Position numbers and translations under genes: made by a program
From: Xestospongia bergquistia
Lineage: Eukaryota; Porifera; Demospongiae; Haplosclerida; Petrosiidae
Assembly: GCA_963965975.1 (NCBI GenBank)
Contig: OZ014424.1
Span: 1,116,001-1,180,000, forward strand
DNA: 64,000 nt
Reading direction: 5' to 3'
The notes under the pieces: generated by a model
What the model was told of the DNA's origin: nothing
Seen by the model: the letters and a program-made list of their open reading frames with translations, nothing else
The model's database searches: none
Shown here: positions 7,694 through 44,596 of the stretch, piece by piece
Layout: each line of letters opens with the position of its first letter
Numbering within the stretch: position 1 is the first letter of the stretch

Positions 7694-9969
7694 ATGGCTA
7701 CTGACCTGGAAATGAGGGTTGCTGTCATTGGTACTGGAGTAGCAGGGCTATGTTGCTTAAGGCATCTCACTCGTTATCCAGAGTACTTCAAAGTACAAGC
7801 ATTTGAGCAGACCAACCAAATAGGTGGTACTTGGGTCTACACTGATAAAATAGGTCAAGATGAAGAGACTGGACTACCAATACACTCCAGCATGTATAAG
7901 AATTTGAAGTAAGAAAGAGGACTTATAGTATTGCTCAATAAATAGCTATGATTGACATTTTATACATAGTCCAGACTTTATTTAGAACTAGTCTTATATT
8001 CACTAGAATCTTACCTTTTAGGCTCCTAGGGTTGGATCCGGTAACCCAACCTCACCAATAATGTACTCAACTGGAAACTTATTGCATTTATAAAATCTAG
8101 AACACTTATTATGTGCATTATGTTTTTGCTCTTACATGTAGTGAGGTCTGTACTTTCTATAACCTCACCTATTAAATTGCAAAACCAACAGCCACACCCT
8201 CCACTATCAATAATAATCCTTGAACAAAGCATTGTCTTTTGCATGAACTTTGACCTGTGCTAGTGTACTCATAGTTTGCTCATACCTACTGCAACATCAT
8301 CTGTGCCTCATTTCAAGCACAGGTCCTTTACAACTCTATAACTATTGCGTCATCATTTCTATCATAGTTAGTATGCAATGAGGTGTCTTCTGATTTTTGA
8401 AGTACTAAAAGGAAAGATTAAAGAGACTCAAAGCTAACATGACCACTTCATAGCCCCGAAAAACCACTTCTGAGTTTGCATGGGTATTTTGCTGACAAAT
8501 GCCAACAATTATTAGCCAACAAAGGGTTAAATAATCAGTTGCATTGGCACCAATTTACAGCTTTGGGGGTTAAAGTTTATTAAGGAAATGTGGTACTTAT
8601 ATTGACCACTGTAGTATTCATGAAACAAATTGGAGATTACATTGTTAAAGTTTGACCATATGTTAGATTCAAAGTACTGATTTAGTTATACATCATATAA
8701 CAGTATCAACAAACTTAGTATTATTAGCAATTTATAATTTTTTCTTTTATTCCAATCTATCTAGAACTAACTTACCTAAACAAGTAATGTGTTATCCTGG
8801 CTTTCCATTTGACTCCAGTCTACCTTCATTTGTCCATCACTCTGATGTCTTACATTACTTAGAACAATATACTGAACATTACCAACTCTATCAATATATA
8901 CAGTTTTACTCTCAAGTAAAGAGAGTAACTCCTTCATGCTCATCACCAATGAATGTTATTAATCATAGAAATGGCTACCTTAATCCATTTGGAGTTACAA
9001 ATGGTACATGTTGGGAGGTGGATATTAAACATGTTCATTCTGACGATGAAAAAAAGAAATTTTTTGATGTTGTGTTAGTTTGCAATGGGTAAGTTAAATT
9101 ACATCAAATTGACGTCTATTGACTTGTTTTGCTTGTGAAATGTTGTTACATTTTTTTCTTACAGGCATTTTTTTGTACCTCATTACAATGTACGTGGTCT
9201 GGAACATTTTAAAGGAACTGTTCTACATAGTCATGAATATCGTTTACCAGATCCCTTTGAAGGACAATGTGTGCTTGTAGTTGGAGCTGGTCAATCAGGT
9301 ATTGATATATGTCTTGAAGTTGCTACTAAGGCAAGAACAGTTCTAGTCAGTCATCGTAAAGGACACATAACATCGCCACTACCAGGAAATATCTATGAAG
9401 TTAAAGGAATTACTTTTATTTCAGAAACAGGTTCTATACAACTTGATGATGGAGACACAGTCAAAGAGAAAGTTGATAGCATTATACTATGTACTGGATA
9501 TGAGTACGAGTTTCCATTTTTAACTCCAGAGTGTGGGATACAAGTTACTAACAATAGAGTACATCCATTATATAAACATATTGTTAACATAGTCCATCCA
9601 TCTATGGCCTTTATTGGACTTAACTTCACTGTAGTGCCACCAGTTTGCTGTGATGTACAAGTACAATATTATCTTTCTGTTCTTCTTGGTAGAACGAAAC
9701 TTCCTAGTCAAGAGGAAATGAAAGAAGAAGAAGAGGAAATGTTTTGTATACAAGTAGAGAAAGGAATTAAAGAGAGACACACTCATTTATTAGGTGATAA
9801 TCAATGGAGTTATTATAATGAGTTAGCAGAACTGGGTCAATTTGAACCACTTAAACCGGTCATTCAATCACTATACGATGAAGTGAAGATATATAGAAGT
9901 CTTGATGTTGCTAGATATAAAGATTTGAATTATGATGTTATTGATGACAAACATTGGTGTAAGAAATAA
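7694..9969 (+). CDS. Flavin-containing monooxygenase 1
   Basis: Exons 7694-7908, 8765-9088, 9165-9969; 447 aa. NADPH- and FAD-dependent enzyme that oxygenates nucleophilic N or S atoms of small molecules. The FAD dinucleotide motif VIGTGVAGL is near residue 11, the NADPH motif VVGAGQSG lies in exon 3, and the FMO signature FxGxxxHxxxY appears as FKGTVLHSHEY. LCTGYEYEFPFL matches the later [F/L]ATGY-type motif. TNLPKQVM at the start of exon 2 is a family hallmark. No C-terminal membrane anchor is visible, so a soluble cytosolic enzyme is likely. Start chosen at the first ATG, 13 codons before the GxGxxG motif. Intron 1 (856 bp) is far larger than in the paralogue at 16.8 kb. Upstream it faces the borealin pseudogene 85 bp away, an arrangement inherited from the block duplication. 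Confidence 0.93.
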
Positions 9970-10313
9970 TAACGTTTTCTTAATATGTTCTAATATTGAG
10001 CTATAGAACACTTGAAAGCAAATGTTAAATATCATAGCTCCTTTATAGTCTTACACGCACATCCTTAGAAAATGGCAGTAGTGGCATAATTAATGCTGTG
10101 TACCAATATGTTCGTCAGTTTAAATTATAATTTGTAATTAATAGAAGTGAGGTTTCAAGTATTTGGTGCTCTCTATTCATGCAAGCCTAACTTTGAAATT
10201 GAATATTGTTGGCAGACGTAGTATATGAAACCAAAAAATTCCCGGAATCAAATTCCTGGGATTACCACACCTTACTTCGAGTCTTAGACAGGCAAACGTT
10301 TTCAGAGTCGAAG

Positions 10314-13300
10314 ATGTCCGATTCTGCTTTGTCTAGTAGACCGAAGTATGACCAGTTAATAGAATTACTAGATACTCTAGTCAGTTGGCAAAAGTTTGGT
10401 ACTTTCTTACCTGGAATTAAGAGCGAACATATCCAAGTAATTGAATGTGAAAATAGAAGAATCGACCAACAAAAATCTGCTCTTCTTACAAAATGGCTGA
10501 GTGTTCATCCTGAGGCATCATGGCAGGATGTTACATCTGCACTAGAAAAAGCACAAGAACGTTATTTAGCGACAGAAATATATCAAAAGCTCAATGCTCT
10601 CCATCAACTGATGTTACAATCACCAACGATACCAAGCACTTCTCAAGGTATGTTTTAATTATTAATTCATTGTGTTATTTTTCACTTATTTTACTCAGTA
10701 TTAATAGAGTACATAGTTAATAACACACTATAAAGGGGTAGAAAAGGTTAGGGGTTAAATAACTTGGGTTTAGTAGATATAACCACTTATACCACTTATA
10801 CCACTTGTATCAGAAAGCAATAAAGGAAAAAATAAAATAATTATAATAACTTTTAATTTAGTGGGAAAGCATTAGTTCCTTTCTATTAGCTTATTAAATT
10901 TGTATTACCCAATTATGTTTCTTGCAAAAGAACTTACTTTTCATTAAGCCACACCATGTTAGTTAACACACACACACATATATAGGAAATATGAATGCCA
11001 ATAGTCACTATAAAAGTCTGTGTTAATGTTTTGTCTATTCACATACCCTCTTTGTCACTTAGTATGTTTAGTGGTTAAACTATATGCAAACAAGATCCTA
11101 ACAATATTCATACTTTTTGTGTTTCTATGAAAAACCTTAAATTGAGTTTTAATATTTTAGTTTCGTCTGTTTACGAAATTTTCTGATTGTCAGTATCCCA
11201 ACGTTAGTAAGATCTAAATTCACCTGTCATTTGTAGCCAGTAATAAATAATAATGATCATTATTGTTATTGTTACTCTCCATTAGTTCCACATATTCCTG
11301 TAAAATCAATATCATTAGAAAGTAAGGAAGAGGAAGACGAAATACGAACAACTTTAAAGAACCTACACAGTAATTTTAGTGACTTAATGGTAGCAGTTCG
11401 TTCAGCCTTTGACCACAAACTACAATGTCAACAACTAGTACTAGTGAACTTTACTAGATGGATTGAACATCAAATGAAATGGGTTGGGCAACTGAGTAAA
11501 GTCACTGATTTGAATGACATTTTTATGAAAATAGCTCCATATTTTGACTTCTTAGACTGTGAATTAATTGTAGACATGAGCGAAAAGTTTCTTGATGACT
11601 TAGGAGAAGACAAGGCCCTTATCAGTGAACTTAAAGAACATAAGATGAAAGCTGAAGCACTTGTTTCTTTATCTACAGTGGAGCAACTTAAAACTCAATT
11701 GAAAAGTATATTTTTTCCTCATCTATCAAATTTAACGAATATGCCTCAAATTTACATTGAATTACATAGCAAATGGAATGAAGCTACTATTGATGCACTT
11801 TATCGGCTAATAGGACAACTGCTTCCTCACAAATCAAAGCAATCAATTCTAAAGCATATTGAAATTGGTCCAGGCTCAGTTATTATTAAATACATTGTCC
11901 TAGAATTTCAAGCTGATTGTCTCATAGCTTATGCTAAAGGCAAACTACAGTTTATGCGTCTCATTGGTATCTTTTATCTAACAATTAATGGTGAACCTAT
12001 CCTTGAAGAAAATGAAAATATGAACTTTAGTTTTGATATGGCTCTTGTTGAAGCAGCCAAAGTTGGTCATGTTGAAGCAGCTCAGTTTCTACTTGATATA
12101 GGTGCTGACATTAATGTTGTTCTTATTGAAGCAGGAAGAATTGGTCATAATGAAGCAGCTCAATTTCTTTTGGAATGGAGAAGTACAACGCTTCCAAATG
12201 TTAAGCTTGGTAAGACATTTCATAACTATAATTTTATATTAAAAATGCACTAACTGAAATACTTAGATCTGGATGAGGTATTACATGTATTGGAAAGAAG
12301 CAATTTTTCTCCATCAAACTGGTTTTCTCTTGGACTTAGTCTCAACCTTCCAACACCAACATTAGTAGCTATTAAAGTCGAACACAGTAATAATGTATCT
12401 CAATGTCTACAGGAATGTTTATCTCAATGGTTGAATAAGACTGACAATGTAGTTGAGAAAGAACCAACATGGAGTTCATTAGCTTATGCTCTGAGAAGTA
12501 TTGGAGAAGTTGCTTCCGCTAGCAACATTGAAATCAGTAAGTAGTTTATAATACATGATCATAAATGAATATATTTTTAATTCTTATTTGAACAGAAACA
12601 GAGCTCTCTCATCCAGCCTGTCAAATATTACTAAAACACTATGAAAGACTTTCACAACTGATTCTTCCTGTAGAGACATTATTAACAGAAGGAGTTATCT
12701 GCAAAGAGGTATTTCACGAACTAAAGAAATCAGGAGGTTTATTAGTCAACAGTCCATTGAGATCACTATGTACTACAATGTCTAAGGACCACAAACAACT
12801 AAAGGTATTTGCCAGCATTTTACTTCAATCAAGAGAAACAATACAAGTAGCTCAGTTTATACTTGAGGAGTATGGTAAGTATAGAAAGTAAACTTCTCAG
12901 ATCAAATATGTTGTCTTCATTCTACATTTAGAGTTTACATTTTCTTCATCCCATCCACCTCAACAATCGGAAGCTAATACAGAAATATCTTGTTTCGAAA
13001 AGGGAGAAAGAAAACCTTCAGGTTTATATTTAAACACTTATAACTTCATAACATATGTATCATAACTCCATGTTTTAAACAGGTACAGAAACTACTATTG
13101 ATCAAATGAGAATGTACTTCAGTACACTTTTTAACACTGTTGCTCGTCTCATTGAAGATAAAGTCCCATCACTTGAAGACCTCAAAACATATCTCCAGAA
13201 ACATTTTGATGAACTAAGGCTTCAATTGGAATATGCTGAATCACTCAAGCAACTCATGTTCCTTATGAAAGACAAAGACACCATTATTGATATCAATTGC

Positions 13301-15666
13301 ATACAAGCCATTGTAAATCATTTGGATATTGAAGAGGTCAAAGATCATATTACAGCATACAAAATAACAATGGAAGAGTTCTGTGAGGAGACCACTCTAG
13401 ACATTTGTTGTAATGAGAGCTTCAGTACAGCTTCATCTTCTCTTCTCAAATGTGAGACTATTGAATTTGTTCTGGAGTGGGAGGCTAACAAACACTCGCT
13501 TAATGACATCAAAGATTTGTTACAAAAGGCTTTCAAAGATTTGAGCAAAAAACTTCAAGTCAGATACATACTAATCAGAAACAACTCAATCATCATTACC
13601 TGTCATGCTCCACAAAATATAACAGATATTCTACTAATAGAGGGGGAAAAGAATCTCGACATGTTGAAAGAGATTGGATTAAATAAACTGATTATTGGTT
13701 ACTATACCATTTGGGATAAAAAGAAGGTATGAAAACATTACTGTGGCTATATTCTACCAGTATTTGAATGCCATACTTTAATGGAAATTAATACTATAGT
13801 CTAATTCCTTAGAACTTAAATGTGTTGATTTGTTGAAGTATTGCATCTATTACTGTTTGGTTAGCTATGTGTTATGAAAATTGTAGTCAACTAGATTCAT
13901 ATCTATTGTGGTATGATAGGTGGCAGATCTTGAAAGCATCGTTCAGAGATTAAATGAATGTAATTGGAAGGACGTACAAGAAGATAAAGGTAGAATTAAC
14001 ATAAATGTATTTTATTTGATTGTAATGCATTAATAGCTGCTCTTGAGAAACAGTTGGAAGCAGCTTATCAATTATTACAAGAGAAAGAAAGTGAAGTAGA
14101 GAGATTAAAATCTACTCTCAAGAAACACCAAGGTAACAACATATAGATTATAAGTGAAAGACAATAAAATCAAAACATAGCCTCTTGCTCTGTATGATAG
14201 ACTTGTTTTGTTTTTCTTAACTGTATAGAGTCTGAATCATTGTTAACGACAAGAGCTAAAATGGACAGAGCAAAGATTTTGCATATAGAACAGTTAGAAG
14301 AGACTCTCCGAAGAAAAGAAGGTGACTACATTTACAGGTTCTTACAGGCACAACTTAATTTTTTCATAGCTATTGAGAAAGAGTTATTATCAGTGTCTTC
14401 TGAGAGACAGAAAGAGATAGAGACACTACAGGAGATAATCACAAAATTGACTCAACAACTATCAGACAAAGATAAACAGATTGAGGAGCTAAAGAAAAGC
14501 TTAAAAGGTAACTATCATTATAATTTATATTACATACCACTTTCTTCTAAATTTGTTACTAGATCTAGCATTCATATCAAAAGCTAGGAAACCATTTACT
14601 AACCAAGAATTTGAAGAGGTCCAAACAAAATCAAGTCAGGAAGAAATCACATCATCTACTAGTGAAAGTAACACAAACCAGATACTTTATAGTTTCAAAG
14701 TTTTGTGCTTACACGTCTACTCATGCCATCAGTGTTGAGATTCAAGGTTTAGGGGGAGGGGTCCGGTTATAATAATCTAAATATATGTATGAGGGACAGC
14801 CCCAAATGTCATTGACATGATTTATTTGTTATTATTGAATGTTTTGTTATTATTTTATAGAAGAAACTGGAAAAGTTGAATGGTTTGATGATATCAGTCA
14901 TGTTCGTCTTACCTCACCAACTACTGAACAATGTGAAGATGTAATGAGTGTATTAATGGAAGAGCAATTAACTGGGAAAAAATGGTGGATTAATCTTGTG
15001 AAATCATTAGCTGAAAGTGTTCTAGTGATTTTCAACAGTCTCAGTAAATGTGCAGTTAGAAGTCTCTATTTAGTGGACACACCTTTAGATGATACATGTG
15101 TATCTACGTTATCAGAAATACTCAGAACTAAAAAAGCATTGAAAACATTATCTCTAACTTCATCTCCAGTTACTGGTGGCATTGAGCAAATAATCGATGC
15201 TCTCTCTACCAACAACTCACTCGAAAAGTTATTATTGTGGCATATTGCTCTCACAGATGAAGATACAACTCATTTGTCAGACATGTTAGGTGTCAATAAG
15301 ATGTTAAAAGTACTAGTTCTTGTCAATTGTAATATTGATGACGACGGTATTCAACGTATTTGTGCAGGACTTGCTAAAAACGAAACATTGATTGAGTTGG
15401 ACATCAACAACAACTCTAAGATCACTTCAGCTAGTGCCAATACAATCATTAAACTAATTGAGACAACTACATCATTAACTGAGCTACATCTCCATAATAC
15501 TTCACTGAAAGACGATGATATCAAGACAATTTGCAACACTCTCACTACCAATGATACAATACAGACACTGAGGTTATCCAAACAACACCAGAATGATTGT
15601 GAGAAACTTGACAGTTATCAGTTTATTAAAGACAGGCTTCTTTTCAGTAATCTGAAAATAAAATAG
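10314..15666 (+). CDS. Death-domain gene A: Death-X-ANK-Death-CARD-like-Y-coiled coil-LRR protein
   Basis: Twelve exons: 10314-10647, 11286-12209, 12267-12536, 12596-12874, 12932-13021, 13083-13726, 13920-13989, 14037-14132, 14229-14321, 14370-14507, 14563-14667, 14861-15666; 1282 aa, all phases consistent. Order: Death domain (residues about 5-95, PKYDQLIELLDTLVSWQKFG...HPEASWQDV); helical module X ending GSVIIKYIVLEFQADCL; two ankyrin-like repeats (ALVEAAKVGHVEAAQFLLDI); a second Death domain (SNFSPSNWFSLGLSL); a CARD-like helical unit (VETLLTEGVICKEVFHEL); module Y ending NSIIITCHAPQNITDIL; coiled-coil exons; and about six ribonuclease-inhibitor-type LRRs. There is no P-loop, NACHT or NB-ARC. 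The domain set resembles NLR receptors and adaptors, so innate immune or apoptotic signalling is inferred. The exon 11 donor (GAAA|GTAACA) was chosen because it preserves phase; it is the weakest junction. Confidence 0.8.
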
Positions 15667-15784
15667 TTACTTCTAAAATTCAGTTTGATTCCTGTCTACT
15701 CTTTTTCTGAAAAGGAGGGCATCACTCTAATGGATTTTCTCACATCAAATCCAAGTAAGGTTTATATGCGCTAAATATTCATAT

Positions 15785-15789
15785 ATAAT

Positions 15790-15821
<32 letters not shown>

Positions 15822-15825
15822 ATAT
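15785..15825. repeat. (TA)n tract
   Basis: Interrupted TA repeat just downstream of gene A, at the boundary with an FMO relic. Confidence 0.9.
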
Positions 15826-15829
15826 GTTC

Positions 15830-16313
15830 AGCCAATGAGATTTGTTATCGTAGCCAGGGTCTGGATTTGTTAGACTTTGCTAAGACATCTCACTTATCCT
15901 AAGCACAAGTACAAGCTTACAGTACAGTCACTAATAATAGAATACATTTGCTATACAACACCTAATAAACATAGTCCATCCATTTATGGCATTGGTTGTA
16001 ATCTTTATAATACCATCAAAATATATTTTGATTGTTAAGTTCAGTATTATATTCTATTCTGGCAGGAAAAACTAACTTCTAGTCAAGTCAAAATGAAATT
16101 AAAGAAGATCAACAAGAGGAGTTCCAGAAGAAAATAGAAATGGCAATTGTAGAAATTTTGATGAACTGGCTTTAGCGGTCAGTTAAACCTGTAATTCAGG
16201 CACTATATATGGCAAAATCATCAAATCAAGAATTTGTGATATTACTAGACTTAAAAGAACTTAATTATGATGTCACTGTTGATAAACACTACTACATAAT
16301 ATAAACGTGCTGG
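15830..16313 (+). pseudogene. FMO pseudogene relic 1
   Basis: Decayed FMO pieces in order: a GxG-like start with GACTTTGCTAAGACATCTCAC, then ACATAGTCCATCCATTTATGGC (HSPSMA), CTAGTCAAGTCAAAATGAAA (SSQVKMK, the PSQEEMK region), and a C-terminal end LNYDVTVDKHYY near 16262-16300. Large internal parts are missing and several stops interrupt it. Confidence 0.8.
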
Positions 16314-16775
16314 AATTATGATTGTGCTTTTTTAATTTTTTTTTATTAACTTTAAATATTATCACAATAAAATTGAAAACATTGAAAGAGTGACTGTTAT
16401 TATCAGAAGTTTCACATTTTGTTATTATTAGTCAATTATATATATATATATATATTTATGTGTTTAGGAACACCTTATTTGGACAACAATAGTACTGCAA
16501 GTTGACATAGTCTGCCGTTTAGTAGCTACAGGTTGATCTAGTGCTCTGTAGTTATTTTAGCAATGAAATTATCAGTCTATGGCTTTGAGTATAAATTATC
16601 ACTCTATGGCTTAGGATTATGTAAGTGTTTATATAAGTATTTGATTATTTGTCTGGAAATGCTACTGACCCTTACAGGAGTTACCTTTAATAGAACATAC
16701 CAAGAAATGCCATCACTTCAGACTTTCTTTATAAAAGAATACTAGATTCGAATAAACCCTTTAAACACTTTATTC
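16314..16775. other. Gap upstream of FMO 2
   Basis: AT-rich sequence with a (TA)n tract near 16437-16455. It holds short open frames without recognisable similarity. It presumably contains the FMO 2 promoter; no clear TATA or initiator was identified. Confidence 0.5.
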
Positions 16776-18245
16776 ATGGATTCAACTGTCAAGCCATTAA
16801 GGGTTGCAGTCATTGGTACTGGATTCGCGGGACTTTGCTCCTTGAGACATCTTACTCGATATCCACTTCAATTCAAGGTACAAGCTTATGAACAGACTAG
16901 TCATATTGGAGGTATGTGGGCCTATACTGATAAAACTGGTCATGATGATAAGACTGGATTACCAATTCATAGTAGTATGCATCACAATTTGAAGTAAGTA
17001 ATATAATCTGTCAATGATAAATTAACCAATGTCCTTACCTAGAACTAACTTACCCAAAGAAGTAATGAGGTTACCTGATTTTCCATTTGACTCCAGTCTA
17101 CCTTCATTTGTCCATCACTCTGATGTCTTACATTACTTGGAACAATATGCTGAACATTATCAACTCTATCAATATATACAGTTTTATTCTCAAGTAAAGA
17201 GCGTGACTCCTAAACCAGGTAGATCAAAACATTAATAAAGTGATGTTAATACAGGAATAGTTATAGATTTAAACACATCAACATTTGACAATGTATATTG
17301 GGAGATAGACATTAAACATGTCCTCTCTGGCACAGAGAAGAAAGAACAGTTTGACATAGTATTAGTTTGTAATGGGTAAGTTACATCCCCCTCCTTCGTC
17401 CTAAATCCATCAAAATGACTGTATTTATTTTGTTCTACAGACATTATTTCAAACCTTACCACAATATTTTTGGTTTGATGCACTTTAAAGGAAGTATAAT
17501 ACACAGTCATGAATACCGTGTACCAGAATCATTCCAAGGACAACATGTTCTTATAGTTGGTGCTGGTTATACAGGAGTAAACATCTGTCTTGAAGTAGCC
17601 ACTAAAGCTAAACAAGTCTTACTTAGCCATCGTAAACAACCAATTAGACAACCATTCCCTAGAAATATTCACCAAATCAAAGGAGTTGCTGGTATTCTGG
17701 AAACAGGTTCTATACAACTAGATAACGGAGAGATACTTAAAGAAGAAATTAATAGCATTATACTATGTACTGGATTTGACTACCAGTTTCCATTTTTAAC
17801 TCCAGAGTGTGGGATACAAATCAGTAACAATAGAGTACATCCATTATATAAACATATTGTTAACATAGTCCATCCATCTATGGCATTCATTGGACTTAAC
17901 TTTATTGTAGTACCACCTGTCTGCTGTTTTGTTCAAACACAATACTATGTCTCTGTTCTCCTAGGAAGAGCGAAACTTCCTAGTCAAGAGGAAATGAAAC
18001 ATGAAGAAAAGGATTTGTTTCGTATACAAGTAGAGAAAGGAATTAAAGAGAGACATACTCATTTATTAGGTGATAATCAGTGGAGTTATTATAATGAGTT
18101 AGCAGAACTGGGTCAATTTGAACCACTTAAACCAGTCATTCAATCACTATATGATGAGGTGGTAAAGTTAAGGAGTCATGATGCTGCTACTTATAAAGAT
18201 ATTGACTATGAAATCATTGATGATAAACAATGGCGGAGAAAATAA
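16776..18245 (+). CDS. Flavin-containing monooxygenase 2
   Basis: Exons 16776-16993, 17043-17218, 17255-17375, 17441-18245; 439 aa. Paralogue of the enzyme at 7.7 kb, same predicted reaction. Motifs: VIGTGFAGL (FAD), TNLPKEVMRLPDFPFDSSLP, FKGSIIHSHEYRVPE (FMO signature), IVGAGYTG (NADPH) and LCTGFDYQFPFLTP. The last 190 residues are almost identical to FMO 1 (for example RVHPLYKHIVNIVHPSMAFI, then ERHTHLLGDNQWSYYNELAE), pointing to recent duplication or gene conversion. All introns are under 70 bp. An extra intron splits the region that is a single exon in FMO 1. Nothing looks broken. Confidence 0.93.
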
Positions 18246-19104: not shown

Positions 19105-19494
19105 ATATGTTTTAACATAGTCCATCCATCAATGGTCTTTATTGAACTTAATTCTTTAGTGGTACCTTCATTATGTTGTGATATACAAGTACAATATTAC
19201 ATCTCTGTTCTACTAGGAAAAACTCAACTTAAAACTTCAGAGGAGATGCTAAGAGAAAGTGAAGATCAAATAAAATTAAAGAGAGGATTTAAAGTGAGAC
19301 ATGTTCATGCTCTTGGATATCATCAATGGACATATTACAAAGAGGTTGCTGAACAAGGCAAATTTGAGCAACTAAATCCAAAATTCCAGCTGCTATATGA
19401 TGAAGTAAATAGAGAACTTGAAATGTTACTATATATAGACAATTGGACTATAATGTTGTTAATAGTAATTATATTGGTATGGAAAAGTGGATAA
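19105..19494 (+). pseudogene. FMO pseudogene relic 2 (C-terminal part)
   Basis: Open over about 120 codons starting in the HSPSM region: ELNSLVVPSLCCDIQVQYY, VLLGKTQLKTSEEM, HALGYHQWTYYKEVAEQG, LNPKFQLLYDEV. It matches the last third of the two intact FMOs but has no upstream exons, no FAD or NADPH motif, and a replaced C-terminus. Confidence 0.85.
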
Positions 19495-20290: not shown

Positions 20291-20679
20291 GAAATAGTTA
20301 CAGATCTAAACACATCAAGATTTGACAATGTATATTGGGAGGTAGACATTAAACATGTCCTCTCTGGCACCAAGAAGAGAGAACATTTTGACATAATGCT
20401 AGTTTGCAATTGGTAAATTACATCCATCTCCCTACTCCTCATTTCATCAAAATGACTGTATTTATTTTTTTCTACAGAGATTATTTCAAACCTTACCGCA
20501 ATATTTTTGGCTTGGTGCACTTTAAAGGAACTATAATACATAGTTATGAATATTGTGTACCAGAACCATTCCAAGGACAACATATCCTTATAGTTAGTGC
20601 TGGCTATACAGGAGTAAACATCTGTCTTGAAGTAGCTACTAAACCCAAACAAATCCTACTTCAAGTTCTTTGTGAGTAG
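20290..20679 (+). pseudogene. FMO pseudogene relic 3 (exon 3 and part of exon 4)
   Basis: Contains a good copy of FMO 2 exon 3 (TDLNTSRFDNVYWEVDIKHV) and the first part of exon 4 (FGLVHFKGTIIHSYEYCVPE), with an intron of matching size. The NADPH motif is altered to IVSAGYTG and the sequence stops soon after PKQILL. No exons 1 or 2 on this side. Confidence 0.88.
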
Positions 20680-21310: not shown

Positions 21311-22311
21311 AGATTGGAATAAAGAAGAAACTAACAATATACTTGTTGTTGACTTCCTAGTCTTGGCCCTAGCTGCAGGCCACTTATCCAGGCAAGGAAA
21401 ATGAACACACTTTAATATACACTTTTACTACTTTATGTTCACATAACATATGTACCTTAATACTTGAAATTAGTATTACTAAAGATTCAAAAGAAAAAAA
21501 AGAAAAAGTAATTATATGTACTAATATCTTGAAAACTATGTCAATTTCAAACCTTTAAATCAATCATTTGGAAAGAAGGGAAATCATACCACATGAGTTA
21601 TCAGTGAAATAACAGTTAAATATATTGTCTCCTAAAAGAAGTGTTACATTTTGTTTTCAATCTAAGAGGTTTTGTAGCAATGGTATAGTCACTAATAGTA
21701 TATTGGAAACATTGACGATGATGTTATCATTTTATTTTGATTATGAATATCTAATTAAAATTTATATTAGTCATTACATCATCATCCAGTAATTAAATAA
21801 TACATGTATTGGTACTAATAGTCTTACGTACCATGTCTATTCTGAAGAGAAAGGTGTGGAATGTGAGATTTAACTTAGTAGAATGTTATTACTTGATTGA
21901 TGATTAAAGTACTTACTATCATAATGTGTAAAAATATATCAGTAACACATAATATGTTTTTAGTGTATTTATAACAAGAGATACCATTTTACATATTTGG
22001 TCAAAATTATAACATTTCTCCATCCACTAACTGAGTTATACTATGAATAATATTGATCAGACTTCACATGATATTTATACTAATATTCATTGTTCTCACC
22101 GTTATTAGTCAAAAACACTGTACACGTGTCAGTTTTAAAAATATATTCATAATAATTATTGCCATATAAAGAACCTAAGGTTATTCAATACATAGTTGTC
22201 ATTGATAACCATTGCATTGTCATAGCAACCAAGAAAAATATAAGGATCAAGCTACTGCCGTTAGGTGTCAGTTACATACACTGTAAATTAATTGTGTCAG
22301 TAGATCCTGCT
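21311..22311. other. 1-kb gap upstream of Death-domain gene B
   Basis: AT-rich, no recognisable coding sequence, no strong repeat. Presumably holds the promoter of gene B. Confidence 0.45.
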
Positions 22312-24672
22312 ATGTCTGGTAAACCAAAGTATGATCAGTTAATAGAACTACTAGATACTCTAGTCGATTGGCAAAAGTTTGGTGCTTTCTTACCTGGAAT
22401 TGAGAGAGAAGACATTGAAGTAATTGAACATGAAAGTAGTAGTGTTGACCAACAAAAAGCTGCTCTTTTTGCAAAATGGCTTCGTCTTCATCCTGAGGCA
22501 TCATGGGATGATGTGCTGTCTGCTTTAGCAAAGTCACGAGAATATACTTTAGCTTCAAACGTATACCAAAACCTTAATGAAGTGACAACTTCAAGAATTG
22601 ATGTACAATTACAAGGTATTATAGATTTAAGATTACTTTGTTTTGGAGAAAGAAGACATCCAAACTACTCTACCATATCATACCATACATTCTGTAGATG
22701 ATGATAAAATATTAGTGGAAAAAGAAGAAGAAATACAGCAATTGACCAGGAAGAAAAGCAGTGAGCTATAGTTCTGTAGTGTATAATGATTTCAATATGA
22801 TTATATAGCTATTGATAAAGCATTAGTAGAGAAACAAGAAGAAATAAACCAGGTGAACAGAGAGAAAGAAGGTATGCCATATAATTATAGATGTTTATAC
22901 CGTGTATGGTTTGTTCTATAGCTATTGATAAAGTATTAGTAGAGAAACAAGAAGAAATAAACCAGGTGAACAGAGAGAAAGAAGGTACACCATATAATTA
23001 TAGATAGTTATACCAAATATGGTTTGTTCTACAGCTATTGATAAAATATTAGCAGAGAAACAGGAAGAAATAAACCAGTTGACTAGACAGAAAGAAGGTA
23101 AGGTATAATTCATATATTATTATTATTAATACAGTTATGTTTTATAGATAATGATAAAGAATTAGCTGAGAAAAAAAGAGTAATGCAACAGTTGGCCAGA
23201 CAAAAAGAAGGTGAGTTACAATATTGTTATTAATATAGAAAAAAAACCCTAGATATTCGGGTAAGGTAATATAATGGTAGGATTTATGGTATTATTCACC
23301 AAACAAAACTTTTATTCACCAAAATTCAATATATTTAGTTAGTACAACTATCATGGCTACATGTAATGCAAAATAATGAAAGCCATTAAGATGATTCTTA
23401 TAATAACTCTTGATATACAAACCACATTTAGACTCCTTACAACACTTAGTAATATGTTGTCCAGGCCTAAAAACTCCACTTCTACTCTAATACAATCTGA
23501 AGTTGTGTAATACATCTGTCAGCATTGTAATCCCTCTTACATTAACCAAACAAGCAGAAATCTTCATCAATGCATGAAATAATAGCAGGGGCTATAAAAT
23601 ATACTTGGTATTTCCACCAGACTTAAGATGACCATGTTTGCCACATGAGACATAAGATTCACTGAGAGAATTCCACTATCTTAGCCCACCATTCTTATCT
23701 TTGGCAAAGATACATCTGAGAATCATGGACATTTACAACAAATGCTGTTCCAACAATCAAGAGCAAGGTCCTCTCCCTCAAATTTATCTCATGCTCCAAG
23801 CAAAAAATGCAACATGGTGTTTTGGAAGCTCAGGCTCACCCATAACTCCCTGTTACCTTAGTATATATAGCCACTGATAATAATAGTTGTTCTAACTACT
23901 GAACAATTTTGAAAATAAAATTTTTGTTCGATTTGTATTACTGTAAATCCTATTAATAGTACATATTTAAACATGTTGTGTTACTACTTATTGTATAGTT
24001 TATTCATTTATTGTCATGCAAAGAATGCTTTGTAGTTGTGGTGTATGTGGTTGTGTGTTTTTCATATTATATAAGACTTACTGTATTCTCTTTGTTTTAT
24101 ATATAGGTGTCAAATGGCATAACGATAGTATTGCTCTTGTTGCACCTAGTACTGCAGATTGTGAAGCTATAATGAAAGAATTGAAGCAGCAAAAACAACA
24201 GCAACCAGACAAACATTGGTGGATTTACCTAAAATCATCCCCTCCCGACAGTTTATTTAAAATTTTCCATAACCTTAATAACTGTCTAGTGAAGGGATTA
24301 AGTATAACTGACTCTCCATTTGATACCAATTCTGCCTCTGAATTATCTCAAGCTCTTAGTAGTAATAAAACGATTCAACTTTTGCAATTGTCCTCTTCTC
24401 CCTTCCTACCTAATGGTCTGGAAATGTTGAGTAAATCTGTCTCTACTAACACTACACTCAAGAGATTGTGGTTGTGGGATATCAACAGTATTTCAGATGA
24501 AGATGCACCTTCTATTATTGAAATAATATCTAATAACAAATCATTGGAGGTGCTGCATCTTCACTGTCCAAACATTACACCATTCAGGAGAGAACATATC
24601 TCTGAAGCACTAGCTAAAAACAATACTATGACTGATGTATTAATTAATGGTCATTTTCTTCGTGGAAAGTAA
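22312..24672 (+). CDS. Death-domain gene B: short Death-coiled coil-LRR protein
   Basis: Exons 22312-22615, 22698-22760, 22809-22871, 22922-22984, 23035-23097, 23148-23210, 24107-24672; 394 aa. The first exon encodes a Death domain about 80% similar to that of gene A (MSGKPKYDQLIELLDTLVDW). Five coiled-coil exons follow, each exactly 63 bp and each flanked by phase-1 introns; three of them share the core VEKQEEINQVNREKE or a close variant. The last exon encodes RI-type LRRs (LQLSSSPFLPNGLEMLSKSV) and starts VKWHND, matching the equivalent exon of gene A. Modules X, Y, ankyrin, the second Death and the CARD-like unit are absent. The last intron is 896 bp and could hide further small exons. Likely an adaptor or decoy relative of gene A; function not shown. 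Confidence 0.78.
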
Positions 24673-26046: not shown

Positions 26047-26575
26047 TACTAAGTTTTATAATATACTAAGTTTGTATAAGGGATTGACCTACCTTGTAGT
26101 TTATTTAGAACAGACCTCATACCTTAGGACAGATTTATCATTAAGTGTATACAGCTAAGTATAGCTACAATAGAACATGACCTTGTACTTATGTATGAGT
26201 AGGACTGGTTACATGAGATTAATCCTGTGCAGTAGGTACATTTATCTATTTTGTTCTAATTCATTTAATTTTCAAAATTTGTAGCATTAAATCCATGATT
26301 GTCAACGCTACACTCAACAACAATCACAGACCACATCTCAGACACCTTTAAATCACCCTATTTTGTGACATAAGTGAAATACAGGATGTCGTTGCCATCT
26401 TAATTGATCACAACAACAACAGTTATTAATGTAATATTCATTGTTATGAAAACTATGAATATGTTGACCCACACGTGCACCATGACATGATCAAATAATA
26501 TTCACAAAAGTACTATATAAGGTAAGATTAAGAATAAAACTAGTACATATATGGAAGTTACTATTTATACTCACT
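26047..26575. repeat. Duplicated upstream block, copy 2
   Basis: Matches 19737-20290. It ends about 60 bp before the start codon of gene C and contains TACTATATAAGG near 26511, a possible TATA element for that gene. Confidence 0.85.
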
Positions 26576-26632
26576 GGTTATCTTGGCAACAACTCTGTTC
26601 TGATAGCATCTTCTATAGTTTATTTCAATTCA

Positions 26633-29600
26633 ATGATAATGACTGAAAATTGTAGAGGATCAAATGAACCTGTAGATACAACAATTTCTGAACTCAGAGG
26701 TAAGTCTGTTAAAAGTGTTATGAAGCCTTTTAAACAACTAAAATCCCTTTATATAGCTGTAAGTGCTAATGCAGGTCAAATGCGAAAGTTAATGAAGGAC
26801 ATACTTCAGGAACAGCACTGTCATTTACAACTAGCTTTAAAAAACTGCCTTTCACAAGTAGCTTCAGAAATGTTCACTAAAAAGTTAATTTCTGAACCTG
26901 TCAAAGATGAACCAACTTATGACAAATTAGTTGGTGATTTTAAAGCTGGAATAGAATTTAAAGATGTTTCAGAATTGCAAAAGTATTGGCAATCATTTAT
27001 TGAGATACTTTCTAATCAAAGTGGCTCTGCTGTTGGTGCAGCAGATTATTTAGCAAATGAGTTATCAAGGAGATTGAAGAGTCACAATGCTCCTCCTAGT
27101 ACATGTCCTTTACTCAATGACAAGGATAGCATCAAAATTGTAGATGTAGACAGAGAAGAGGAAATTATGGAAAAGCTAGAAGATCTTCATGAAAAATTTG
27201 CTGGTCTAATGAGACAAGTTAGAACTGAACTAAATAAGGAGATTGAAAACAAACGAACAACTCTTTCAGATATAGCTCGTTATGCGCAGGATTTTATAAC
27301 TTGGGAGAATATTGATTTCAGCAGTGTTCAAAGCATTGATGAGCTTTTTACAAAACTCCATTGCTATTTCGATTTTCTAGATTGTAGAGTTGTCATTGCA
27401 ATTTCTAAGGAATACATTACAAAAAATGATGATCTGATACATAAATTAGAAGGTCATTCTAAGCAATCACATAAATTTCGCAATATGCTATCAGTGAAGA
27501 CTCTTAGAGAAAGTTTATTGGAAATATACAATCCACACTTTAAAAATCCTGAAAACGCACCAACAGTTCACATTAAGTTGAACAATTCATGGGATGAAGC
27601 CCCTATAGAAGGATTGTACTTATTAATTAGAAAATTTCTTCCGAAACATGAGAAAGAATCCCTCATTAACCACATCCTAATCTTGTCAGGATCTGTACTT
27701 ATTAAATATATTGTCCAAGCATCCCAAGTCGATTGTCTCATAGGTTGTGCTCAAGGCAAGCTACAGTTTATGCGTCTCATTGGTATCTTTGGTTTAGTAA
27801 TCAATGGCACACCTATACTAGATGAAGATGAGAATATGAACTTTAGTTTTGATAATGCCCTTTTTGAAGCAGCAAAAGTTGGTCATAATGAAGCAGCTCA
27901 GTTTCTTCTGGACTTAGGAAGTAGTCTCGATGTGGCTTTTCTTGAGGCAGCAAAAGGCAGTCATGTCAGAGCAACTTGCTTTCTTCTAGAATTAGGAGCT
28001 AAGATTGGAACTTTGATGCCTCTGTGTGCTACATTAGGTAAAAATGATTTAAATTATAAGTTGTGAATATTATATTTCTTCAGATCTAAGTCAATTAGAT
28101 GAGATAGCAAAAGTGTTGAAAACAAATAATTTCTCTCCATCAAACTGGTTTCTTCTTGGACTTAGTCTCAGTCTTCCACAATCAACATTAGATGCTATTA
28201 AAGCTGAACACAGTAATAATGTATCTCAATGTCTACAGAAATGTTTATCTCAATGGTTGAGGAAAGCTGATGATGTAGTCGAGAAAGATGGACCAACATG
28301 GAGTTCATTGGCTGGTGCCCTGAGAAGTATTGGAGAAGTTGCTTCTGCTGAAATGATTGAAATTAGTATGCAATTTTATAATGTAGATTCAGATAATTAT
28401 TACATATCTTATTCAGGAATAGAGCTTTCCCATCCAGCCTGTCAAATATTACTAAAACATTCCAGAAAGCTTTCACAACTGATTCTTCCTGTGGAGACAT
28501 TATTAACAGAAGGAGTTATCTCCAAAGAGATATTTCATGAGCTAAAAAAATCAGGAAATTTATTAGTTAATGGTCCATTGAGAGCACTATGTACTACAGT
28601 GTCTAAGGACCACAAACAACTAAAAGCATTTGCCAGCATTTTACTTCAATCAAGAGAGACAATAAAAGTAGCTCAGTTTATACTTGAGGAGTATGGTAAG
28701 CAAGAAATAAGCTTCACTAATAAAAACCTTTGCTTTGTTTTGTAGAAACTACATTTACTTCACTACATCCATCTCAAATATCAGAAGGTATAGATGTCCT
28801 TTCTTTAAATGACCAAAAGATGGAAAAATCACCTCCAGGTTTGTTTATTATTTGTATTTTAGTTCTGATAATTTGATAATTAAACTAACACAGGAACTAC
28901 TTTTGATCAAATGAGAATGTACTTCATTATACTTTTTAACACTGTTGCTCATCACATTGAAGATAAAGTCCCATCACTTGAAGACCTCAAAACATACCTC
29001 CAGAAACATTTTGATGAACTAAGGCTTCAATTGGAATATGCTGAATCACTCAAGCAATTCATGTTCCTTGTCAAAGAGAAAGACACCATTATTGATATCA
29101 ATTACATACAAGCTATTGTAGATTACTTGGATATTGAGGAAGTCAAAGATCATATTGGAGCATACAAAATAACAATGGAAGAGTTCTGTGAGGAGACCAC
29201 ACTAGACATTTGTTGTAATGAAAGCTTTAATAAAGCTTCAACTTCTCTTCTCAAATGTGAGACAATTGAATTTGTTCTGGAATGGAAGGCTAATGAACAC
29301 TCACTCAGACATGTCAGAGCTTTATTACAAAAGGGCTTCCAAGATATGTCTAAAAAGGTTCAAGTGAGATACATAAAAGTGGACAGCAACTCTGTCATTG
29401 TAACTTGCTATGCTCCACGAAACATAATGGATATTCTACAGATGGAAGCAAAGAAGAATCTTGAACTACTGAAGGAGACTGGTATAATTGAACTAAAGAT
29501 CAGCTACCATTTTATTTGGGGTAAACATGCCAATAAAATACTAGCAGATAAGGAAGAAGAGATTGAGATACTACAAAAGAAAATAACTTCACTGTCCATA

Positions 29601-31083: not shown

Positions 31084-32080
31084 ATGAAATCACTTCCTGT
31101 AGCTACCACTCTTCATGGACACACTTTGTTTGTTAGACCACAGTATGACCAGTTAATAGAATTACTAGATACTCTAGTCAATTGGCAAAAGTTTGGCACT
31201 TTTTTAACTGGAATTGAGAGACGAGACATTGAAAGGATTGAAGCTGACACATCAATTAAAGGAATTGACCAACAAAAAGCTGCTCTATTTACAAAATGGC
31301 TTAGTGTTCATCCTGAGGCATCATGGGAAGATGTGTTGTTTGCACTAGAAAAGTCACAAGAATATTCTCTAGTATCAAGGGTATATCAAAAACTTAATTC
31401 AACTTTATCAACAGCTTCAACTATTTCTCAAAGTATAATTATTATTGTAATAATTAATAATAATGTAATCTCATCATGTAGATCCTCAAGAAGTGGTAAA
31501 AACAGTCGTGTTTGAAAATGAAGAGGAAGAAGAACTTCAAGCTACATTAGAACATCTTGATAGAAACTTTAGTGTATTATTGGTAACTGTTCGATTATCT
31601 CTTGATTGTAAACTACAACATCAACAACTACTACTAGTGGAGTTTATTAGATGGATTGAACATCGAATGAACTGGGTTGGGGAACTGGATAACATTGTTG
31701 ATTCAAATGATCTTTTCAAGAAACTACATCCATATTTTGACTTTTTAGACTGTGGATTGATTGTTGATATGAGTGAAATGTTTCTCAATGATGAATGCTT
31801 TGGAGAAGACAAAAGAAGCCTTGTCAGTGAACTTAAAGAACACATAGCTAAGGCTAATACACTTCGTTGCTCATCTACTGTGAAAAAACTCAAACTTCAA
31901 TTAAAAAGCATATACACCCCACATCTAAGAGATCTAACAAGCATGCCTCAAATTAACATTAAATTACAAAATCCATGGAATGATGCCACTATTCAAGGAC
32001 TTTATCTACTAATAGGACATTTACTACCTTACAAGTCAAAGCATTCAATTTTGAACCATATTGAGATTGATACAGGTTGA
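31084..32080 (+). CDS. Death-domain gene D, truncated Death-X protein
   Basis: Exons 31084-31432 and 31482-32080; 315 aa. It carries the same Death domain (PQYDQLIELLDTLVNWQKFG) and most of module X (RWIEHRMNWVGELDNIV, PYFDFLDCGLIVDMSEMF, LYLLIGHLLPYKSKHSI). The frame stops after HIEIDTG, exactly where gene A continues GSVIIKYIV. No ankyrin, second Death, Y or LRR exon was found downstream. Either a 3'-truncated pseudogene or a short Death-only adaptor. The start at 31084 is tentative; an in-frame ATG lies 20 codons upstream. Confidence 0.6.
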
Positions 32081-33244
32081 TTTTATATTTAATGTATGCA
32101 TATAATTTTGTAATGTAGGTTTTATTTTTGTTTCATTCAATGCAAAAAAAGTATTCATTTCACTCTGATATGCTGATGCTGCAATTAGAATGAAATATAT
32201 TAAACATACAGAAGCTTTGCATAAATGCAAGTCAACTCAAAAGCAATGTCTGTCTCGATTCTGCACTCAAGCATAAACATTACCACAAGATGTAGTAGAT
32301 GGTATTCCACTATCTAGCCTGTTTCTTTATTTCCTTCACTGACAGATTTCTTCCTAGAGTTTTTTGTACCATCTTTGGCCAACTTTTATGATGGTATAAC
32401 ATCAAATAAGACAAGACAGATTACTTGATAGACAGAATGATGGTCAAAAAAATTAGAGAAGAAATATTCAGATAGAATTACTATTGCACAAATGCTTAGC
32501 AAGTGCCCTAGCTCATTTTCTAGTAAGTATAATTTTAACTCAAATGTATATACTAGATTTATTAGATATCCTTTACCTATACAACTGTTTCTTGACAAGG
32601 ATAAAGCAATTATGGCATATCTTAGTGGTCATGCATAACTATAGTATTACATGGAGAAATATATGGCTAGCTAACATATTGCAAATGTAAATCTAATCTG
32701 TTTAATTTTCAAAATTCTTATTATTTAACCTGCATTCAACAATTATCAATATACACAGACCAACACAGATCACACCTCAGACACTTTTGAATCACTCTAT
32801 TTCTATAATAGTGACCTCAGTGAAAAATATACAGGATGTGGTTGCCATCTTAATTTGAAGAGCAGGTGATGTTGCTGCTAAATTAAACAAATGAAATAGG
32901 GTTGATTTATTAGAAATCCCTTAGTTATAATATATGCCCTGTTAAACCACTTGCTTCCATGACAAGGATAAACCATATCTTAGTAGTCCTATCTAGTACT
33001 ATAGGATTACACGGAGAAATATATGGCTAAAATATTGCAGGTGTTTGTGTTGACTTACATGTCATGCACAATGCCCATATGTAAAAAAATTAAAGCTAAG
33101 ATTCAGATTAAACTAGGATTTGACAAGAAAGCGATGGTCCTGACACTTGTATGCAAGGAGGATATAGACACACCTTATACATTTCCTGCTACTTACTGGC
33201 TGTATCCTGTAAGTTACTATCTGATGACTCATGTCTATATCAAG
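32081..33244. other. Gap with a third partial upstream block
   Basis: 32699-32885 repeats part of the blocks at 19.7 and 26.0 kb (AATATACACAGACCAACACA, then ACAGGATGTGGTTGCCATCT). 32930-33244 is duplicated at 34890-35205 as the upstream region of the two MARVEL genes. No coding sequence recognised. Confidence 0.65.
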
Positions 33245-34685
33245 ATGTCTGAATCTTTAGAAGACATAGAGAATATAGTAGAAACTGATAATGGCAGTTC
33301 TTCTGAAGTCCAGACCAGCAGCAGATCAAGTGGCTATTGTAATGGGTACACAATAGACCACACTTACTTGAGAAGTATTGAAGGTATTTTGAGAGTAATC
33401 ACACTGGTGAGTGTAAAGAAGAGAGAAAGATCTTATAAGCTTTCCTTTGCTTTCTAGCCTCTTGCTGTCATTTTCATTGTGTTGGATGTGGCTGATTACA
33501 GAGGTGGTGGAGAATGGTTTAATTTATTTGTAGCAATTGGATGGATTATATATGCTGTTGTTACTATTATCATTGAAGTCTTCGTACCTGGTATCTATGT
33601 CTATAGATTAGTGGTAAGAAATTAGATGAATGACCATTTACTTTATTGACTTGAAAAAATCAATCAACTTTTGACATTGTAAATGACATTATATGAATTC
33701 CCTGATCAGTTTTCAGAGGATACCACATGTTATAAATTAATACCATCTTCTTTATAGCTAGGTGCATAGTTCATTAACCAATGCAACTATATGAATGACC
33801 CAACCTCTAAATTTAATATACCCCATAAAACAAATACTAAGACACATTGTCTATTGGTAATGAATTAATTTATATATACAAACAATATTGTTTAAGGTTA
33901 GTTTGGCGTGCCCACCAATGTTCAGTAAATTTTGTTTGAAGACTTTACATGACATAGACTATTCAGTATGCACAGTGTGGTTAATAACAAGTACTTATAT
34001 ATATACAAATTTAACTTCCATGTCATATTCAGCATTAATGTTGATAATTACTTTGTGCCTGTTGTCAGTAATGCTACTACATAGCGACAAATACCATACA
34101 ATTATAGTACAAGTTAATTGTACTAATTTTTTCCTATATAGGATGGTATCATGACCATGCTATATGCTTTGATGTGGGCTATAGCTAGTATCATATGTAT
34201 TGTTGATGCTGCAATTCGAAATAGTGGTGTTCTTGGAGGTGCTGCAGTAAGTTTCAAGATGAGATTACTGACCTACATAGTAGTAATTATCATAATATTG
34301 TAGTAACCACTATATACCAGTATATTGTGAAAAATTTTTAGGTAGTGTTGGTAGCACATACACATGTAAATATGTGAAAACACAATTCACTTTACTAAAG
34401 AAGTATGTTGCTATTATATCTATATTATATAGAGTACTTGAGATTTATCATACAGATCAAGAATATAATTGTTAAGTTTTTTGTTGTGTATAGTAGATTG
34501 GATTTATATGGGGTAGTAATAAGGTTTATTTTATTATAGGATGTTCATTCAACGTTGTATTTTTTCTTTAGTTTTTAGGAATCTTAATTACAGTCATGAT
34601 CATTACAAATGCAGTCATGGCATTGAGAACATGGCGTACATATGAAGGAGGAACTAGAGGTTCTGTGGCCCTTTTTGTCATTTGA
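33245..34685 (+). CDS. MARVEL-domain four-TM membrane protein 1
   Basis: Exons 33245-33406, 33458-33613, 34142-34246, 34572-34685; 178 aa. Short acidic, Ser-rich cytoplasmic N-terminus (MSESLEDIENIVETDNGSSS), then four hydrophobic helices: around LRSIEGILRVITLPLAVIFI, WFNLFVAIGWIIYAVVTIII, GIMTMLYALMWAIASIICIV and FLGILITVMIITNAVMAL. The second loop ends in a charged tail RTWRTYEGG. Length, helix spacing and the LRSIEGILR start fit MARVEL proteins of the CMTM/plasmolipin type, which work in membrane apposition and vesicle traffic. The start at 33245 was preferred over an upstream in-frame ATG because only this one is conserved in the tandem copy. Exact subfamily unknown. Confidence 0.75.
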
Positions 34686-35205
34686 TTCTGATCAATGAAA
34701 AAGTGCCGTGAACACTTTTAAAATATTGAGTTTCTTTCTGAATTTCTATTAAGTTTTCAGTATACTACATTTTAATTACCAAATCAGAACCAATTATTCT
34801 TTGAATAACAACTAAAATGTCATTTTCATTCGTGATTTTCGCATGATGCAATTAAGATGAGTATTGCGTTGAGTTATTAGAAATCCAGATTCCTTACCTA
34901 TACAAACTGATAAAGAACTCTTTTCATTACAAGGGTAAATCAATATGGCATAGACTAATAGTGACAGCTGTAGTACTAGTATTGTATAGAGAGATGGTTA
35001 ATTTATTGTGAACATTTTTGTTGACTTACACGTCAAGCATAAAGCCCATTACAAAAAGAAATAAAAGTAACATTCAGATTGAACTAGGATGTGACAAGAA
35101 AGTGTCTTGGCACTTGCATTTAGGGAGGATACATGACACATATATTACCTGCTACGTACTGGCTGTATCCTGTAAGTTACTCTGATCATTCATATCTGTG
35201 GTAAG

Positions 35206-42885: not shown

Positions 42886-43182
42886 AGCAACTTATGGGTG
42901 GATCTCTGTTGTTGTGTTGCATTTGCAAACCCTATTTTTTCAGATAAACTTAACACATCTTTTGTAAAAAAAGAACTTAAAGAGTGGTTTCTACAGCAGA
43001 ACAGATCTCCAGTTACCATTAAAGAAATACTGAGGTATGATTAATATATATTATTATAATCATAACCATTTTATCTCGGTAAATATACCTTTATTGTTAC
43101 ATTCATTATAAATCATTGCTCTTCCTATGCACAATTGACAATCTATATTATTCTATAGAATATTCAAAAATCAGAAATAACC
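42886..43182 (+). promoter_or_regulatory. Divergent OSGIN/PHLPP promoter and PHLPP 5' leader
   Basis: Short spacer between divergent start codons. It appears to contain a noncoding PHLPP first exon ending CTGAG|GTATGA (donor near 43034), joined to CTATAG|AATATTC just before the start. A short upstream frame beginning ATGGGTGGATC (42894) ends at AGATAA, so it would not extend the protein. Confidence 0.45.

Positions 43183-44501: not shown

Positions 44502-44596
<95 letters not shown>

Follow-up and report, generated by a model that had tools for sequence, protein, structure and literature searches.

Classical NLRs are driven by an ATPase motor, and most accounts of NLR sensing place the STAND NTPase at its core. 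The adaptors TRADD and PIDD combine TRADD-N or LRR parts with Death domains, have no NACHT domain and are not known to be expanded; PIDD is autoprocessed via ZU5 domains. Lamprey VLRs carry a diversifying concave LRR face. In the sponge Amphimedon, a huge expansion of Death-like/TRADD-N/ANK-or-LRR proteins (NCOA6 clade) has been described, with hundreds of copies in a single genome (Kaur et al. 2021, eLife, PMC8195603). Sponge NLRs such as those of Dysidea avara combine NACHT and LRR with CARD or DEATH domains and form large repertoires (PMC12909245). In highly variable plant NLRs, which possess an NB-ARC switch, the exposed LxxLxLxx positions of the concave LRR face are hypervariable and are regarded as the binding site (PMC8226289). 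Comparisons with these three papers below refer to the available parts of their text.

Gene A lies on the + strand at positions 10314-15666 of the window, a stretch of 64,000 nucleotides from the sponge Xestospongia bergquistia. As the first-pass annotation had proposed, it comprises 12 exons with GT..AG borders that translate, over exactly this interval, into a single open frame of 1282 amino acids followed by a stop. Ten of the 11 introns are in phase 1, and exons 2-5 and 8-11 belong to class 1-1. Exon 1 (10314-10647) carries the start codon and the first of the two Death domains already noticed (Pfam Death, E 1.6e-9), while exon 3 (12267-12536) carries the second (E 9.1e-5; 23.0 bits for a cut-off of 22.6, which it barely passes); both exceed the cut-off as single exons. 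Exon 2 (11286-12209) includes the X module (about 11286-12007), composed of a helical part and a TRADD-N-like alpha/beta part, then two ankyrin-like repeats (about 12008-12208). In a scan of exon 2 by itself these repeats score 21.8 bits with Pfam Ank and pass the cut-off of 21.1, but they fall below it in the whole protein. Exon 4 (12596-12874) corresponds to a putative CARD-like helical domain, and a similar domain occurs at all 30 Y loci, gene A included. Pfam CARD matches one of 20 aligned exon-4 domains (E 6.6e-4), exon 4 of gene A having no Pfam match; the best match of the exon-4 profile among solved structures, ribonuclease inhibitor (E 0.0048), is not considered meaningful. Exon 5 (12932-13021) is an open linker of phase 1-1 and exon 6 (13083-13726) contains the Y module, again a helical part plus a TRADD-N-like alpha/beta part. 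Exons 7-11 (13920-13989, 14037-14132, 14229-14321, 14370-14507 and 14563-14667) form the coiled coil that had been predicted ahead of the LRRs (residues 848-1014). Its best heptad register scores 0.82, equalled by one of 200 shuffles, and the stretch is matched at 21 of 30 Y loci, including that of gene A. Exon 12 (14861-15666) ends with the stop codon and carries an LRR domain with nine xxLxLxx strands. Matches to LRR models remain below cut-off in gene A; LRR_6 is above cut-off in both relatives scanned. A NCBIfam scan of six pieces gave no useful match.

This layout is already known as a kind from the sponge Death-like and TRADD-N expansion (PMC8195603), and gene A is most readily understood as members of two such families fused together. 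As in those proteins, Death-like domains (exons 1 and 3) precede the TRADD-N-like part, and a variable ANK/LRR C-terminus belongs to a large expansion; unlike them, gene A carries two TRADD-N-like modules and unites ANK with LRR in the same chain. The available parts of that paper contain no mention that we found of two families on different contigs or of concave-face LRR diversification. Gene A resembles sponge NLRs (PMC12909245) in its death-fold domains before the LRRs and its large repertoire, but TRADD-N-like modules and a coiled coil stand in place of NACHT. It shares with TRADD and PIDD the combination of TRADD-N-like or LRR parts and Death domains without NACHT; in contrast, its kind is expanded and Pfam lists no ZU5 for its protein. 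The earlier description of an NLR-like architecture without NTPase holds for the Death/LRR layout but not as a one-off NLR minus its NTPase, since the kind is published and the NACHT matches of the genome lie elsewhere.

X and Y are no orphan parts: each has at least 150 matches in the genome, its own included, and the two are mutually homologous. When the profiles are built from diverse members, 200 columns align with a probability of 97.4 and P 1e-11; with close relatives alone the signal is weak (probability 6.2, P 0.006). The two are copies of a single module in which a helical stretch is followed by an alpha/beta domain. The commonest Pfam signals of the alpha/beta domain are TRADD-N models, all below curated cut-offs. 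PF13820 (NCOA6_TRADD-N) matches 9 of 29 Y modules and PF20694 matches 7 of 19 X modules, five of which 19 were picked for having such a match. PF20694 does not figure among the matches listed for 28 close X modules, and neither model matches the X or Y of gene A itself. FcoT has a better best E than the TRADD-N models in 4 of 29 Y modules. In whole-genome searches at E<=1, however weak each match, all four PF13820 matches fall within Y modules and six of eight PF20694 matches within X modules; because the listed X and Y modules occupy 0.19 Mb of the 146 Mb genome, this is improbable by chance. An AlphaFold2 model of Y from a five-row alignment (mean pLDDT 67.8) shows helices, then strand-helix-strand-strand-helix-strand, in which helices are kinked and the last strand is split; the single-sequence fold was poor (mean pLDDT 41.5). 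With the five-row model as the only query, Foldseek gave no match at E<=0.001, and TRADD-N was absent from the structure matches listed, which neither excludes nor proves it. Alignment profiles of X and Y gave weak scattered matches to solved structures (best E 0.24), judged to be chance.

Two families can be distinguished. Family 1, Death1-X-ANK, is found mostly on contig C14, which holds 115 of the 150 X matches listed, and a Death1-like exon adjoins X at 22 of 30 X loci, gene A (L045) included. Family 2, Death2-CARDlike-Y-coiled coil-LRR, is found mostly on contigs C3 and C4. The LRR exon has 146 matches listed, its own included. Of the 150 listed Y modules, 44 are followed by such a match less than 3 kb downstream, against 7 of 150 in the upstream control; at 5 kb the counts are 54 and 20. 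Among the matches listed, X-Y fusions occur at four loci (gene A, gene C and two on C3), and X, Y and LRR are combined only in gene A. The presence of four related loci in 22 kb was borne out. Besides gene A, all on the + strand, gene B (part, 22303-24651) has a Death1-like exon (22303-22584; Pfam Death 2.2e-7) and an LRR exon (24109-24651). Gene C (part, 27128-29525) includes X (27128-27823), ANK (27824-28048), Death2 (28095-28364), CARD-like (28422-28694) and Y (28890-29525) elements, with no Death1 or LRR match found. Its Y exon gives E 0.024 with PF13820 and 0.042 with PF20694, and the Y parts of genes A and C are sisters at 100/99. Gene D (31126-32077) has a Death1-like exon (31126-31404) and an incomplete X (31490-32077).

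The idea of a large, fast-evolving receptor-like family is supported. In 12 LRR exons sampled from the 146, the exposed concave strand positions show a dN/dS of 3.48 (bootstrap 2.36-6.91), and their dN was not reached once in 5000 random draws of 45 columns; the strand leucines of these 12 relatives have a dN/dS of 0.35. Gene A shares with the 12 relatives an identity of 0.15 in strand positions 2/4/6, of 0.94 in the strand leucines and of 0.59 outside the strands. Among the 14 closest Y pairs, 13 have a dN/dS of 0.20-0.41 and one of 0.79. These LRR ratios compare paralogs within a single genome rather than alleles. This unexpected combination of a diversifying concave LRR face and a constrained Y looks like a ligand-receptor signature. 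The same exposed LxxLxLxx positions are hypervariable in plant NLRs (PMC8226289), but there NB-ARC is present and alleles were compared. An earlier report of LRR diversification in Death-like/TRADD-N proteins was not found in a chiefly open-access literature, as far as its available parts go; a term search of a sponge allorecognition transcriptome paper (PMC5450542) found nothing.

Our preferred reading, which we regard as somewhat probable, is that the product of gene A is a cytosolic receptor of immune type that works without an NTPase, a chimera of two expanded families that senses through its LRRs and signals through death folds by induced proximity. Phase-1 exon units would have joined a Death1-X-ANK member to a Death2-CARDlike-Y-coiled coil-LRR member. 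X/Y would be a mobile unit, a possibly death-fold-like helical bundle followed by a TRADD-N-like domain of RRM/ferredoxin type. The LRR face may bind a variable non-self or altered-self ligand, upon which the coiled coil would mediate release or clustering of the protein. A death-fold assembly could then nucleate on the TRADD-N-like, CARD-like and Death modules and draw in caspase or kinase adaptors; induced proximity would do the recruiting, with no ATP-driven ring. Oligomerisation through the coiled coil in place of an NTPase is plausible. Since gene A has a short ANK pair as well as two TRADD-N-like modules, it could link partners of both families. More tentatively, and at slightly below even chances, the genome may hold an NLR-sized, NTPase-free receptor system with Death, CARD-like and TRADD-N-like domains, a diversifying concave LRR face and switching by TRADD-N-like and coiled-coil parts; gene A would be a chimera of an LRR sensor and the ANK-bearing family, where two signalling repertoires meet. 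Here, 12 sampled LRR exons are extrapolated to the entire receptor family. If true, an early-branching animal has built a repertoire of intracellular receptors that is large, diversifies and lacks a STAND NTPase. The concave-face signature provides a concrete list of residues for testing, and the four listed X-Y fusions illustrate trading of whole exon modules between such receptors. Sponges discriminate self from non-self tissue, a role for which hypervariable LRR proteins would be an obvious, though purely conjectural, candidate.

Gene A might instead be an adaptor or scaffold in a TRADD or PIDD role, collecting death-fold partners with its LRRs as a protein-docking surface. This is unlikely: its stacked death-fold and TRADD-N-like modules and its coiled coil agree with such a function, as does the part of adaptor and switch that the available text of Kaur et al. 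(PMC8195603) assigns to TRADD-N, but concave diversification in the 12 relatives suits changing ligands better than a fixed docking partner. Rather improbable too is a locus of two adjacent genes encoding separate proteins, Death1-X-ANK (exons 1-2) and Death2-CARDlike-Y-coiled coil-LRR (exons 3-12). The halves do resemble separate families, given the neighbours of X and Y described above. However, exons 2 and 3 are separated by a 57-base GT-AG stretch of matching phase 1, which hardly suffices for a 3' end plus a promoter, and the ANK-Death2 order, again separated by a short gap, is also seen in gene C and the two C3 loci. That gene A is a decaying, functionless member is very improbable. Its tandem relatives are often broken, as in gene D, whose X match carries one TGA and two TAA and which is probably a broken copy, but the frame of gene A is open across 12 exons and, relative to gene C, its Y has a dN/dS of 0.34, its CARD-like exon one of 0.26 and its Death2 one of 0.59.

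The absence of P-loop, NACHT and NB-ARC stated in the first-pass annotation was confirmed. No NACHT, NB-ARC or other NTPase matches the gene A protein at E<=10 in the Pfam scan, and neither the protein nor any of the six frames of 9990-16500 contains the pattern [AG]xxxxGK[ST]. The longest sense ORF in the introns is 38 amino acids, so that no intron of gene A could conceal an NTPase. Of the features of a NACHT-LRR protein, gene A has the C-terminal LRRs and N-terminal Death but no central NACHT/NB-ARC. The genome has at least 95 NACHT matches, the nearest on contig C14 being 563 kb distant, and no same-strand NACHT lies within 5 kb of the 446 modules listed (0/150 Y, 0/150 X, 0/146 LRR). A hidden NACHT exon, a caveat raised at the outset, is rejected by these protein, intron, six-frame and neighbourhood scans. 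A classical NLR whose NACHT exon was recently lost or is hidden is thus largely refuted and scarcely credible, even though the Death, CARD-like and LRR parts resemble NLR ends and NACHT matches exist in the genome.

Two further candidates were set aside. The LRR changes fall at first and second codon positions and involve mixed bases; the codon listing, inspected informally, shows no apparent single-base pattern that would indicate targeted mutation. The ANK arm was also considered as a sensor. Loci with stops (L055, L070) or a short ANK frame (L064, L071) were excluded beforehand, and one of the 23 close family-1 pairs (X dS<0.25) is nearly identical, its ratio not being useful. In the other 22, ANK evolves faster than X (dN/dS 0.34-0.78 vs 0.14-0.37, with repeat misalignment possible), but its dN/dS does not exceed 1.

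Gene A (10314-15666) joins, in order, a first Death domain (Death1, exon 1), module X (exon 2), ankyrin repeats, a second Death domain (Death2, exon 3), a CARD-like exon (exon 4), module Y (exon 6), a coiled coil and an LRR exon (exon 12). The twelve-exon structure proposed in the first-pass annotation holds: all internal borders are GT..AG, and splicing yields an uninterrupted reading frame of 1282 aa plus a stop. Ten of its 11 introns are in phase 1, and exons 2-5 and 8-11 belong to class 1-1. Both reported Death domains score above the Pfam cut-off (the second by 0.4 bits) and the heptad score of the coiled coil was matched by 1 of 200 shuffles. The ankyrin and LRR signals are present in Pfam but weak. 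The original observation was right.

X and Y are two copies of one module, with a helical part and an alpha/beta part that we call TRADD-N-like because its Pfam matches are mixed and below cut-off, gene A's own X and Y matching neither PF13820 (NCOA6_TRADD-N) nor PF20694 (TRADD-like_N). Across the whole genome (146.5 Mb, 21 contigs) at E<=1, all four PF13820 matches lie within Y modules and six of the eight PF20694 matches within X modules; none reached the curated cut-off. Among 14 control genomes PF20694 matched in one and PF13820 in none. When Y modules were scanned singly, PF13820 was the most frequent family (9/29, best 0.0031); four of the 29 matched FcoT, whose best E was lower (9.9e-5), and three matched the GTPase family MMR_HSR1 (best 0.01). 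PF20694 was found in 7 of 19 mostly diverse X modules (best 3.2e-4), 5 of the 19 having been chosen for such a match, and TRADD-N models were absent from the matches listed for 28 close X modules. The Y exon of the related gene C (27128-29525) matches both models weakly. This kind of protein is already known: the accessible text of Kaur et al. 2021 (PMC8195603) describes 357 NCOA6-clade TRADD-N proteins in Amphimedon, mostly with 1-3 Death-like domains, TRADD-N and a C-terminal partner, most commonly ANK or SH3-LRR.

Neighbour counts suggest that gene A unites two layouts. Within 1.5 kb flanks of 30 Y loci (gene A's included), a CARD-like exon resembling exon 4 adjoins Y in all 30, Death2 matches in 18 (21 with either Death query) and the coiled coil in 21. 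Among 150 listed Y matches, an LRR match lies downstream within 3 kb in 44 (upstream control 7) and within 5 kb in 54 (control 20). Death1 adjoins X in 22 of 30 X loci, gene A's included. Death1-X-ANK and Death2-CARDlike-Y-coiled coil-LRR therefore appear to be two distinct layouts, with the LRR demonstrated in part of the second. On C14, the contig carrying gene A, some X-bearing open frames of ~2000 aa hold two X modules; at C14:1032811 with 1034497 and C14:978146 with 979829 (genome G000) a second, divergent X lies in the same frame (23-24% identity).

The LRR sample is small (12 of 146 listed matches, all from contig C4), and the nine xxLxLxx strands were set on gene A's sequence, from 17 pattern matches, after the variation had been seen. 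At the 45 exposed positions, over all 66 pairs, dS is 0.094 and dN 0.327 (ratio 3.48; bootstrap over genes 2.36-6.91), against dN/dS of 0.35 at strand leucines and 1.75 over the whole exon. The other 205 columns give 0.97 (dS 0.037), which shows weak constraint or conversion. No random set of 45 columns (0/5000) reached the observed dN, and shifting the strand register reduces it. By strand position, dN is highest at 4, 6 and 2 (0.69, 0.51, 0.37), middling at 7 (0.21) and low at 1 (0.029), the alternating pattern of a beta-strand. Among the 14 closest Y pairs dN/dS is 0.20-0.41 in 13 and 0.79 in one. In a gene pair matched by position, the LRR (L107/L108) has dS 0.042 and dN 0.091, and Y (L025/L028) dS 0.128 and dN 0.029. 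Hypervariable positions are placed as in highly variable plant NLRs, according to the available part of PMC8226289. Synonymous change is also raised at the exposed codons of the 12 exons (L097-L108; dS 0.094 vs 0.037 elsewhere).

Gene A's LRR, too distant from the 12 for dN/dS, shares 94% identity with them at strand leucines, 59% outside strands and 15% at positions 2/4/6. Its LRR face would sense a variable ligand, a role resting on the selection found in relatives, and the coiled coil, TRADD-N-like and death-fold modules may relay the signal through clustering. Set beside the diversification in relatives, an adaptor with a docking LRR appears unlikely. As far as the literature searched shows, it is new that X and Y are a single module in duplicate, that gene A fuses two families, and that an LRR family free of NACHT diversifies on its concave face.

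Among the listed matches, X precedes Y within 5 kb at only four loci, namely gene A, gene C and two further loci on contig C3, and has an LRR exon downstream at one, gene A. That gene A is two genes read as one is quite doubtful. For the fusion itself, the Y tree makes genes A and C sisters (100/99) adjoining the two C3 fusions (86/86), while the X tree places gene A within the Death1-X-ANK family, adjoining a C3 fusion (82/82), with gene C outside (AU p 0.022 for an A+C clade, 0.031 for A+C+C3). Since the trees disagree, either modules were exchanged later or fusion arose more than once, a provisional reading in view of the long branches. A decaying gene is very improbable, the frame being open over all twelve exons.

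The absence of an NTPase, also claimed in the first-pass annotation, is real. Pfam finds none in gene A at E<=10, and the pattern [AG]xxxxGK[ST] occurs neither in the protein nor in the six frames of 9990-16500. Ten introns measure 47-193 bases and the longest, of 638 bases, has sense ORFs of at most 38 aa, so that an NLR with a hidden NTPase is scarcely credible. At least 95 NACHT matches exist genome-wide; no listed match of Y (150), X (150) or the LRR (146) has one within 5 kb on its own strand. The whole listed family, beyond gene A, is without a neighbouring NACHT. On C14, 563 kb separate gene A from the nearest NACHT match listed.

The window holds other loci. In gene C, a 212-aa stretch ahead of X (26492-27127), without a Pfam match at E<=0.01, occupies the place of gene A's first Death domain. 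Gene B (22303-24651) has a Death1-like exon and an LRR exon, with no X or Y detected between them in the module scan; it is another rearrangement of these modules. Gene D (31126-32077) looks like a broken Death1-X copy with stop codons within X. Flavin-monooxygenase (FMO)-like copies lie between the receptor-like loci (9139-9966, 17373-18242, 19105-19491, 20392-20679); two ORFs among them match FMO-like (7.6e-30, 3.9e-26), 19105-19491 has no Pfam match at E<=0.01, and the others look partial by eye. Two short ORFs similar by eye (33005-33454, without a Pfam match at E<=0.01, and 35176-35493) are apparently a local duplication. A PHLPP-like gene (43159-45037) carries a PHLPP RA domain (3e-17), PH (4.9e-9) and LRR (3.9e-9).
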